In this document: piece by piece, positions 36,525-39,954 of the stretch
How positions within the stretch are numbered: the stretch's first letter is position 1
Layout: every line of letters begins with the position of its first letter
NCBI GenBank assembly: GCA_003141205.1
Contig: PLLD01000029.1
Span: forward strand, 1-45,702
From: Gemmatimonadota bacterium
GTDB lineage: Bacteria; Gemmatimonadota; Gemmatimonadetes; Gemmatimonadales; Gemmatimonadaceae
Direction: 5' to 3'
Length of the DNA: 45,702 nucleotides
Position numbers and translations under genes: made by a program
The notes under the pieces: generated by a model
Told to the model about the DNA's origin: nothing
Seen by the model: the letters and a program-made list of their open reading frames with translations, nothing else
The model's database searches: none

Positions 36525-37870
36525 GTTCCGGGTTGGATGGGCACCATTTCGTATTCCGTGCGGACGTGGATCCCGCGGCGTGCGAGCTTCTCGGTCATGA
36601 TCGATGTCGGCATCAATCGTAGCGAGACGAGGTAGGCCGCGCTGCATCCGGCGAGGAGAGGAAGCAGTCCCGTCGACTGATGCGTGGTCTCGTACGCGAA
36701 GACCACGGAGGTCAGAAGCGCGTGCGACGCGCCAGCGAAAATCGCCGCCATCCCGACGAGCGCCGCCATCCGGGGATCGACCCCCAGCCCGGGCGCCGCT
36801 GCCGCCACCGCCGCGCCGAGGAGCCCGCCCAGTCCGCCACCAACGGTAAAGAGCGGCGCGAGTGTTCCGCCCGACGTGCCGCTCCCGAGGGCGATGGTCC
36901 ACGAGATGAGCTTGCACACGACCAGCGCGGCCAGCGCCCCGCCCACGAGCTGTCCCGCGACCGTCTGCTCGATATTGTCGTAGCCCACGCCCAGAGTCCG
37001 CGGCGCGATCCAGCCGATGAGCCCCACCGCGACAGCCGCCAGCGCGGGCCACCACATCCAATGAATGGGGAGCCGCTCGAACGCGTCCTCGACGGCGAAG
37101 AGCGCCCGCGTAATCACCACCGCCGCAACACCGATCGCTGCGCCGAGCAGCGTGTACACCGCAAGCGCGGCCACGCCCGGTGGCGCGAGTAGCGGCATGG
37201 CGAAGATGGGTGCTGCACCGACGGTGGCGATGCGCACGCTCGCGGCTGTGGCTGCGGCGAGCGACACGGGGATGAGCGATCGCGCGCGATACTCGAACAG
37301 CAGCAGCTCGATCGCCAGCAGGACCGCGGAGACCGGGCTGCCGAATGTGGCGGCCATCCCCGCGGCGGCCCCCGCGGCTAGGAGGATCTTCCGCTCGTTG
37401 GCCGTGGTGTGAAGGATCTGCCCGATGACGGAGCCGAGCGCGCCACCCGTGGCGATGATCGGTCCCTCGGCGCCGAACGGTCCCCCCGTGCCGATGGAGA
37501 TCGCTGCCGAGAGAGGCTTGAGGAACATTACGCGCGGGGCGATGCGGCTCTCGTTGAGGAGAACCTGCTCCATCGCTTCCGGGATCCCGTGTCCGCGGAT
37601 CGCGGAGGAGCCGTAGCGCGCCATGAGGCCGACGAGGAACGCACCGATGACCGGGACGAGGATGACGACCGGGCCCAGGGTGTTGTTAGCCGGGGAGCGG
37701 AACGCCAGCGATGGGTGGCCGTAGAAGGCGATGTTGGTGATCAGGCCGATCAGCGCGATGAGAATGCGCGCCACCAACGCCCCGACAACGCCGATACCGA
37801 TCGCCAGGCCGGAGAGGAAAAACACGCGGCCGAGGCGGTCGGAATCGACGGTACGCGACGCAGATTTCAT
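36521..37870 (-). CDS. ClC-family chloride channel/transporter
   Basis: 449 aa; GHGIPEAM, GGPFGAEGPIIATGGALGS, GSGTSGGTLAPLFTVGG; 4-nt overlap with the DHS-like gene. Confidence 0.92.
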   Translation of the reverse strand: MKSASRTVDSDRLGRVFFLSGLAIGIGVVGALVARILIALIGLITNIAFYGHPSLAFRSPANNTLGPVVILVPVIGAFLVGLMARYGSSAIRGHGIPEAMEQVLLNESRIAPRVMFLKPLSAAISIGTGGPFGAEGPIIATGGALGSVIGQILHTTANERKILLAAGAAAGMAATFGSPVSAVLLAIELLLFEYRARSLIPVSLAAATAASVRIATVGAAPIFAMPLLAPPGVAALAVYTLLGAAIGVAAVVITRALFAVEDAFERLPIHWMWWPALAAVAVGLIGWIAPRTLGVGYDNIEQTVAGQLVGGALAALVVCKLISWTIALGSGTSGGTLAPLFTVGGGLGGLLGAAVAAAAPGLGVDPRMAALVGMAAIFAGASHALLTSVVFAYETTHQSTGLLPLLAGCSAAYLVSLRLMPTSIMTEKLARRGIHVRTEYEMVPIQPGT

Positions 37871-37901
37871 GGCCCGTAACGTATATGCTTACATTGCCGT
37901 C

Positions 37902-38672
37902 GTGTCTCGCCGCGCACTCACACATCTCAGAAAGGTCGACCCGATTCTGGCGCGCGTGATCCAGAGGGTTGGGGCGTATCGGCCAAGGATGCAGGGGGAA
38001 GGAACACACTTTGGTGCGGTGATCCGGGCGATCGTATATCAGCAGCTCTCGGGCAAGGCCGCATCGACGATCCACGATCGCTTCCTCGCACTGTACGAGA
38101 ATCAAGAGCCGGCGCCGGCGCAGATCCTCGCCACATCGGATGCCGCGCTGCGCGCGGTGGGACTCTCCCGTGCGAAGGCGCGCTACGTCAAGGACCTCGC
38201 GGAGCGCGTGGAGAATACGGGTCTCCCGATCGAGCGCTTGCACGAGCTCGGCGACAATGCCGTGATGGATGCCTTGGTGCAGGTCAAAGGGATCGGGCGG
38301 TGGACGGCGCACATGTTTCTGCTTTTCCGCCTTGGCCGGCCCGACGTGCTGCCCGAGCTCGACCTGGGCGTCCAAAAGGCAATCCAGCTCGTGTATCACC
38401 TGCGGCGACTCCCGACGCCGGAACAAGTCCGTAAACGGGGGGCCGTCTGGTCTCCCTACGCGTCCGTCGCCACCTGGTATTTGTGGCGTAGCCTCGAACT
38501 CCCTTCCGAGACAGCGCATGCCACTCCGAAACGTCCCGTTCCGAAACGTCCCGTTCCGAAACGTCCCGTTCCGAAACGTCCCGCGCGCACGAAGCGCGCT
38601 CGCCCTGCTCCTGCTCGCCGCGCCACTCGCGCTCCTCGGCGCCGCACGCCAGCGCGGACGCGTCGCGCCTGA
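37902..38672 (+). CDS. DNA-3-methyladenine glycosylase II (AlkA-like, HhH-GPD) with basic repeat tail
   Basis: AIVYQQLSGKAASTIHDRF, VKGIGRWTAHMFLLFRLGRPDVLPELDLGVQKAI; C-terminal PKRPV repeats. GTG 37902 preferred over ATG 37869. Confidence 0.88.
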   Translation: MSRRALTHLRKVDPILARVIQRVGAYRPRMQGEGTHFGAVIRAIVYQQLSGKAASTIHDRFLALYENQEPAPAQILATSDAALRAVGLSRAKARYVKDLAERVENTGLPIERLHELGDNAVMDALVQVKGIGRWTAHMFLLFRLGRPDVLPELDLGVQKAIQLVYHLRRLPTPEQVRKRGAVWSPYASVATWYLWRSLELPSETAHATPKRPVPKRPVPKRPVPKRPARTKRARPAPARRATRAPRRRTPARTRRA

Positions 38673-39042
38673 CCCCGTCGTCACGGTGTACAAGGACCCG
38701 TCCTGCGAGTGTTGCAGGAAATGGGTGACGCATATGGAGTCGGCGGGGTTCACGGTCAAGGTGGTCGATACCCCCGACATGGGCACCGTCAAATCGAGCG
38801 CGGGCGTTCCGGGCGCGCTCGAGTCGTGTCACACCGCCTTCGTCGGCCCATACGTGATCGAGGGGCACGTGCCTGCGGAGCTCGTGCATCAGCTCCTGGC
38901 GACACACCCGTCGGACATCCGCGGCCTCGCGGTGCCCGGAATGGTGACCGGCTCACCGGGCATGGACGGCCCGAACCCACAGCACTATGATGTAGTGGCG
39001 TTCGGGAAGGACGGCTCGACGCACGTGTACGCTCATCGGTAG
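38518..39042 (+). CDS. DUF411 metal-binding protein, exported
   Basis: MPLRNVPFRNVPFRNVPFRNVPRARSALALLLLAAPLALLGA...VYKDPSCECCRKWVTHMESAGFTVKVVDT...SCHTAFVGPYVIEGHVPA; opens inside the AlkA-like gene. Confidence 0.88.
   Translation: MPLRNVPFRNVPFRNVPFRNVPRARSALALLLLAAPLALLGAARQRGRVAPDPVVTVYKDPSCECCRKWVTHMESAGFTVKVVDTPDMGTVKSSAGVPGALESCHTAFVGPYVIEGHVPAELVHQLLATHPSDIRGLAVPGMVTGSPGMDGPNPQHYDVVAFGKDGSTHVYAHR
38526..38583. repeat. 15-bp tandem repeat CCGAAACGTCCCGTT, three full copies plus 13 nt
   Basis: Copies at 38526-38540, 38541-38555, 38556-38570, 38571-38583 with no mismatch. Confidence 0.95.
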
Positions 39043-39102: not shown

Positions 39103-39954
39103 ATGCGGACTCTGACAGCTGCTCTAACGCTCGTCGCTGCGACGCCTTTCCTTGCTCCCGCGATCCCTAACGCGTTCGGGACGCCTCACGCCGTTAGCAC
39201 GGCCGCCCGGCACACAGCGCACGAGATGACGATATATGCGCGCGATTTCGCGTTCGACGCGCCGGATACCGTGCCGGCCGGGATCACCACGATCCATCTG
39301 ATCAACAAAGGGGCGGAGCTGCATCACGTCGTCCTGATCCGCCTGTCGGGCGGTCATACGATGGCGGATCTAGGCAAGGCCATGGCGTCGAATGGCCCGC
39401 CACCCAAGTGGGCAACCAGCGTCGGCGGACCAAACGCTCCGGTTCCCGGAGGGAATGCAAGTGCGACGCTGCACCTCGCACCCGGCTCCTACGCCATCGT
39501 GTGTTTCATTCCGTCAGCCGACGGGGTAGCGCATGTCATGAAGGGGATGAGCCGGCCGCTGACCGTAACCGGCCCGGACGTCGTGGGTCCCTTACCGAAG
39601 TCCGACGTGACGGTGGCGCTCGTCGATTACGGCTTCAATGTCTCGCGTCCGTTCGTGGCGGGGCACCAGGTCGTCCGCATCCACAATGCGGCCATGCAGG
39701 ATCACGAAATGTTCATCGTTCGGCTCGCACCGGGAAAAACAGTGCAGGATCTAACGGCGTGGTCCGAGAAGATGGTGGGCCCGCCCCCCGCGATGCCGCT
39801 CGGGGGCGTGACCGCGCTCGCTCCGGGCCAGGAGAACGAGATATCAGTAGACTTCACGCCGGGACAATACGGCCTCGTCTGCTTCATGCCGGACATGCAC
39901 GATGGCAAGCCGCATTTCGCTCACGGGATGACCAAGGCGTTTACGGTATCGTAA
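39103..39954 (+). CDS. Exported protein with two cupredoxin-like domains
   Basis: 283 aa; two similar halves (ITTIHLINKGAELHHVVLIRL...GSYAIVCFIP and HQVVRIHNAAMQDHEMFIVRL...GQYGLVCFMPD). Confidence 0.8.
   Translation: MRTLTAALTLVAATPFLAPAIPNAFGTPHAVSTAARHTAHEMTIYARDFAFDAPDTVPAGITTIHLINKGAELHHVVLIRLSGGHTMADLGKAMASNGPPPKWATSVGGPNAPVPGGNASATLHLAPGSYAIVCFIPSADGVAHVMKGMSRPLTVTGPDVVGPLPKSDVTVALVDYGFNVSRPFVAGHQVVRIHNAAMQDHEMFIVRLAPGKTVQDLTAWSEKMVGPPPAMPLGGVTALAPGQENEISVDFTPGQYGLVCFMPDMHDGKPHFAHGMTKAFTVS

Follow-up and report, generated by a model that had tools for sequence, protein, structure and literature searches.

In a survey of co-directional gene overlaps, none of 715 longer than 60 bp was judged real, and the longest true overlap, that of holD and rimI, measured 56 bp (Palleja 2008; PMC2478687). 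Models of overlap origin require no selection (Sabath 2008, PMC2542354; Fonseca 2013, PMC3887535). In the phase 1 unidirectional overlaps treated in these two studies, the downstream gene is offset by one nucleotide, and the overlap originates by replacement of a stop or start codon. Among DNA glycosylases, the disordered tails of UNG2 and MPG were reported to aid processive DNA search (reviewed in PMC9266487).

Here, we describe a 155-nt overlap between an AlkA-like glycosylase gene and a DUF411 gene in the window (the whole stretch of DNA that was analyzed, 45,702 nt). As in holD-rimI, the C-terminus of a DNA-metabolism gene overlaps an unrelated gene at its N-terminus; however, the holD-rimI overlap is up to 56 bp long and is conserved across Enterobacteria, whereas the present overlap is almost three times longer and is found in one genome. 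It shares the one-nucleotide offset of phase 1 overlaps and, probably, their origin by stop or start replacement (PMC2542354; PMC3887535), and the ATG of the DUF411 gene is provided by a His codon, CAT, which is of the NAT type modeled for that phase. It differs from them in its length, in containing a tandem repeat, and in having segments with recognizable roles (a basic tail and a signal peptide). Like the tails of UNG2, MPG, NEIL1, and TDG (PMC9266487), the AlkA tail is an extra unstructured segment outside the glycosylase core, but those proteins are eukaryotic, whereas the protein studied here is an AlkA from a bacterium, and its tail, of putative function, contains K/R pentapeptide repeats. 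The AlkA proteins of genus g17 (G016, G160, and G161) belong to the same glycosylase clade and carry K/R-rich tails, with 15-bp repeats in two of the three, but without an overlapping DUF411 gene. The overlap looks real and lineage specific, and it does not look like a new kind of system.

Organization of the overlapping genes

The features discussed below are as follows (window coordinates, forward strand marked +).

37902..38672, +, AlkA/Mag-type DNA-3-methyladenine glycosylase (HhH-GPD), predicted from PF00730, PDB matches, alignment, and a structure model
38499..38669, +, C-terminal AlkA tail, LPSETAHATPKRPV...TPARTRRA (tail survey, structure model)
38508..38510, +, GAG, the sole Shine-Dalgarno-like bases, 7 nt before ATG 38518
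38518..38672, +, same-strand overlap of the AlkA-like and DUF411 genes, 155 nt including the stop codon (sequence, open reading frames, translations)
38518..39042, +, DUF411 gene, encoding a CxCC protein that carries a putative, Sec-like signal peptide (PF04214; PDB 6wis)
38518..38599, +, DUF411 n-region, MPLRNVPF...RARSA, with DNA similar to the tail of AlkA in the sister genus (KRPARxKRA)
38525..38583, +, 15-bp tandem array, unit TCCGAAACGTCCCGT, 3.9 perfect copies (TRF)
38599..38651, +, h-region and cleavage area of the DUF411 signal peptide, LALLLLAAPLALLGAAR (maximum KD15 of 2.49; DNA alignments to other DUF411 genes)
39103..39954, +, exported-looking downstream protein, like two cupredoxin-like halves (sequence reading; Shine-Dalgarno TAGGAGAT; outside the overlap)

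The predicted glycosylase falls within the AlkA/Mag HhH-GPD family. It matched PF00730 (HhH-GPD; Pfam E value of 6.5e-16) and the solved structures PDB 3s6i, 2h56, and 2yg8, which are of the Mag1/AlkA2 type (E values of 6e-35 to 3e-27). Alignment with relatives revealed the invariant Asp of LDLG (D154) and the GIGRW hairpin, and the structure model gave a confident, all-helical AlkA core over residues 1 to 198. Translation could start at ATG 37869 or GTG 37902; the longer form is doubtful because the alignment of relatives begins at about GTG 37902. ATG 37869 also overlaps the start of a divergent ClC-type channel gene on the minus strand (ATG 37870; region 37868 to 37904), and a search among relatives for a conserved ClC-AlkA pair found none. 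The AlkA-like gene ends with TGA 38670-38672.

The DUF411 protein matched PF04214 (Pfam E value of 3.7e-23, 81 bits), has its CxCC motif in VYKDPSCECC, and has a solved relative in PDB 6wis (E value of 1.5e-24). Genes supported by homology, one mark of a true overlap, are thus found in both frames. By appearance, the signal peptide is Sec-like, whereas those of most family relatives are Tat-like (SRRxFL). Its h-region is among the most hydrophobic of the homologues (KD12 of 2.68), and its n-region measures 27 residues against a homologue median of 10, or 12 residues once three repeat units are removed. The downstream protein at 39103-39954 matched no Pfam or NCBIfam model, and a conserved DUF411-cupredoxin pair was rejected because no cupredoxin homologue was present near other DUF411 genes.

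An earlier note on this DNA had placed the DUF411 ATG at 38518, inside the AlkA-like gene, with 155 nt shared; sequence, open reading frames, and translations gave exactly these coordinates. Position 2 of the AlkA codons is position 1 of the DUF411 codons, and the shared DNA is read as ATPKRPVPKRPVPKRPVPKRPARTKRA... in the AlkA frame and as MPLRNVPFRNVPFRNVPFRNVPRARSALALLLL... in the DUF411 frame. The assertion that no later start codon precedes the signal-peptide core was also borne out: no other ATG, GTG, or TTG lies before the core, and an alternative start was rejected, since the next candidate after 38518 is GTG 38686, inside the DUF411 domain. The Shine-Dalgarno sequence for ATG 38518 is weak (GAG) compared with that of the next gene.

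The array at 38525-38583 has a period of 15 and 100% matches, and it encodes PKRPV in the AlkA frame and RNVPF in the DUF411 frame, as the earlier note had read it. Its TRF score of 118 compares with 52 for the next best array of the window and makes it joint third among the 25 arrays that scored at least 60 across 284 kb of the genome. No further copy with at most one mismatch was found in the rest of the genome and none in viral contigs, and a dispersed or mobile repeat was rejected on these grounds. Since 15 is a multiple of 3, a change in copy number would leave both frames intact, in agreement with what had been proposed.

Matched places in 179 genomes of the family yielded no co-directional AlkA-DUF411 overlap, which makes this one appear private to the window's lineage; a DNA search of the order did not find one either. 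Conservation in relatives, another mark of a true overlap, was not observed.

K/R-rich tails in the AlkA group

The AlkA tail comprises 57 residues, of which 21 are K or R and 1 is acidic; after residue 198, the structure model has pLDDT values of about 58 to 70 and no helices. Tails were surveyed in 116 AlkA homologues from the same order, nearly all from the same family, by counting the residues after the conserved WYLWRSLE. Most of these proteins (98 of 116) end within 15 residues of the core. Tails of more than 30 residues occur in 13, including that of the window, and all 13 are K/R-rich and almost devoid of acidic residues. Tail presence clustered on a tree built from the core without the tails, with 7 changes compared with 16 in shuffles. 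The basic tail that had been described for this protein is therefore a recurrent feature of its AlkA group. As a feature of bacterial AlkA, recurrent K/R-rich tails can be tested in their own right.

The window AlkA grouped with genus g17 (support of 99/91), in which all three members have tails, although an AU test did not reject genus g12, which lacks tails, as its partner (p = 0.28). Pentapeptide repeats are present in the tails of G016 and G160 (TKRAV and TTAKK). The window tail aligned better than shuffles to the tails of G016 (P = 0.001) and G161 (P = 0.005; DNA, P = 0.01), and without its extra repeat copies it aligned end to end with that of G161 (P = 0.003 to 0.004), but this likeness spans low-complexity, repetitive sequences, so that convergence is possible. 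The earlier note had taken AlkA relatives ending before 38518 as a sign of assembly or sequence error. Most relatives do end that early, but the nearest clade has tails; thus, an error in assembly or a frameshift error does not explain the data better.

K/R-rich AlkA tails, some with 15-bp repeats (TKRAV, TTAKK), were seen in several genera independently of any overlap (L041, L096, L087, L101, L157, L044, and L047). A 103-bp tandem repeat lies near the AlkA gene of G016 (L085:9438-9714; 2.7 copies, 96%).

Signal in both reading frames

Codon usage was taken from 130 heuristically called genes of the same genome (63,383 codons), and the re-coding tests below rest on these calls and on whole-genome codon usage. 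In the overlap, the codon adaptation index (CAI) of the DUF411 frame was ordinary (0.63, 19th percentile), and that of the AlkA frame was very poor (0.36, 0.2nd percentile). In 66 to 97% of synonymous re-codings of the DUF411 start, the AlkA frame stayed open; a signal peptide read out of frame in a GC-rich genome is mostly open, and the open frame is therefore no evidence in itself.

The poor codon usage and the ease with which the frame stays open speak for a simple loss of the AlkA stop codon. AlkA would then have ended near LPSE at 38510, with DUF411 starting from 38518, and the basic tail would be an incidental out-of-frame reading. The short relatives, several of which stop exactly at LPxD or LPxE, also favor stop loss, as does the finding that 3' elongation of the upstream gene was the commoner route to overlap in simulation (PMC3887535). 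The amino acid content of the tail and its similarity to the g17 tails argue against it. K/R content in the AlkA frame was 0.42 to 0.46, compared with a mean of 0.23 to 0.25 in re-codings that respected codon boundaries. The excess over re-codings of the DUF411 start had a P value of 5e-5 after the repeat and of 0.004 from the h-region on, and the effect was smaller but persisted once the null included codon-boundary context and was run on pieces. A K/R content of at least 0.42 was reached in 0.7% of real genic stretches read in the AlkA-type frame, and among 38 DUF411 genes with the alternative frame open for 50 codons, that of the window was the most basic (0.42, compared with at most 0.38). 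On balance, simple stop loss is possible but unlikely.

The DUF411 reading, in turn, was more hydrophobic than all 20,000 re-coded versions of that tail in AlkA (2.49, compared with a maximum of 1.18). The K/R excess and the hydrophobicity excess together mean that the content of each frame is not explained by the other frame, and they support nonrandom signal in both. With both genes backed by homology, the claim of dual coding is supported at the sequence level, and the shared DNA is probably used by both proteins. The locus thus offers a 155-nt candidate with homology-backed genes and nonrandom frames, for which the sister genus provides a polarized comparison.

A model for the origin of the overlap

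The window tail resembles the g17 tails up to about 38600, and the AlkA-tail-like KRPARTKRA ends at about 38599, while likeness to other DUF411 genes at the DNA level mostly starts between about 38590 and 38628. A junction at about 38590 to 38600 would explain why the DNA upstream is tail-like and the DNA downstream is DUF411-like. One exception counts against a junction: the DUF411 gene of G122 gave a weak DNA alignment reaching back to 38523. We favor, with a probability of roughly 55%, a genuine overlap of 155 nt, out of frame, between two unrelated genes, created at this junction.

In the proposed sequence of events, a rearrangement would have joined the AlkA and DUF411 genes at about 38590 to 38600, with an inherited, disordered K/R-rich AlkA tail upstream and the native DUF411 signal peptide downstream. 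The joining would have removed the AlkA stop and the DUF411 start. AlkA would then extend into the DUF411 signal peptide by about 23 residues before reaching a stop codon, and DUF411 would initiate at an ATG present by chance within the AlkA tail and so acquire a basic n-region. Later in-phase duplications of 15 bp may have added three extra copies and thereby 15 residues to both proteins; they are placed after the joining because the copies are identical. Translation of DUF411 would have to begin within the AlkA message. The tail may add nonspecific DNA affinity to the glycosylase, and the shared DNA would provide the Sec signal of DUF411 with a long n-region of positive charge. We infer the junction, the order of events, the function of the tail, and translation from sequence. 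A lineage-specific gene-joining accident followed by recent repeat expansion, in a clade with basic AlkA tails, is most likely. Such overlaps may be tolerated because basic tails of low complexity and signal-peptide n-regions are both permissive, and in GC-rich DNA either can pass for the other when read out of frame.

Alternatively, the DUF411 signal peptide could have arisen by overprinting inside a complete, preexisting AlkA tail, with no junction. The end of the tail, RRTPARTRR, resembles RRTPSRKVR of G161, and the end-to-end alignment with that tail fits this explanation. However, re-codings of the tail remain far below the hydrophobicity of the signal peptide, codon usage favors the DUF411 frame, the part of the tail after the junction had no significant likeness to the g17 tails when aligned alone (P = 0.09 to 0.13), and DUF411-like DNA starts at about 38590. 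We consider overprinting improbable.

Compared with a joining accident, a selected dual-coding repeat, the copy number of which tunes both the DNA affinity of the glycosylase and the export signal of the CxCC protein, is a distinctly long shot; if true, a single repeat count would set both proteins together. The idea of a fusion by programmed +1 frameshifting at CCC-G found no support, and in such a product the signal peptide would be buried. Finally, although the source is a fragmented metagenome assembly (344 contigs, 82.6% complete) and annotated large co-directional overlaps are usually errors (PMC2478687), an assembly or gene-calling artifact is very improbable, as neither gene needs a frameshift, both gene bodies are intact and homologous, reads are usually longer than the 59-bp array, and any whole-unit miscount would keep both frames.

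DUF411 genes in related genomes

Among the matched places in the 179 family genomes, AlkA and DUF411 genes were side by side only in G008, in the reverse order, with DUF411 first (L010/L066, G008:C33:83472-84633). In eight relatives (G013, G019, G037, G047, G058, G145, G147, and G148), DUF411 and AlkA share a strand, with DUF411 about 6 to 14 kb upstream. A conserved AlkA-DUF411 operon was rejected, given the single adjacency in the other order and the distances in several relatives; the distant same-strand arrangement hints at an old neighborhood.

The DUF411 genes of G041 (L019) and G057 (L036) carry, precisely where the first Cys of CxCC would be encoded, an in-frame TGA (VYKSPT*GCC), and the DUF411 matches of G049 (G049:C59:41860-42285) and G006 (G006:C18:96641-97009) contain one internal TGA each. 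Among the papers searched, none contained both "DUF411" and "selenoprotein." SelB scored above the cutoff in G041, G057, G049, and G006 and not in G000 or in G039, which has the Cys form; the TGA-bearing DUF411 is a candidate selenoprotein form.
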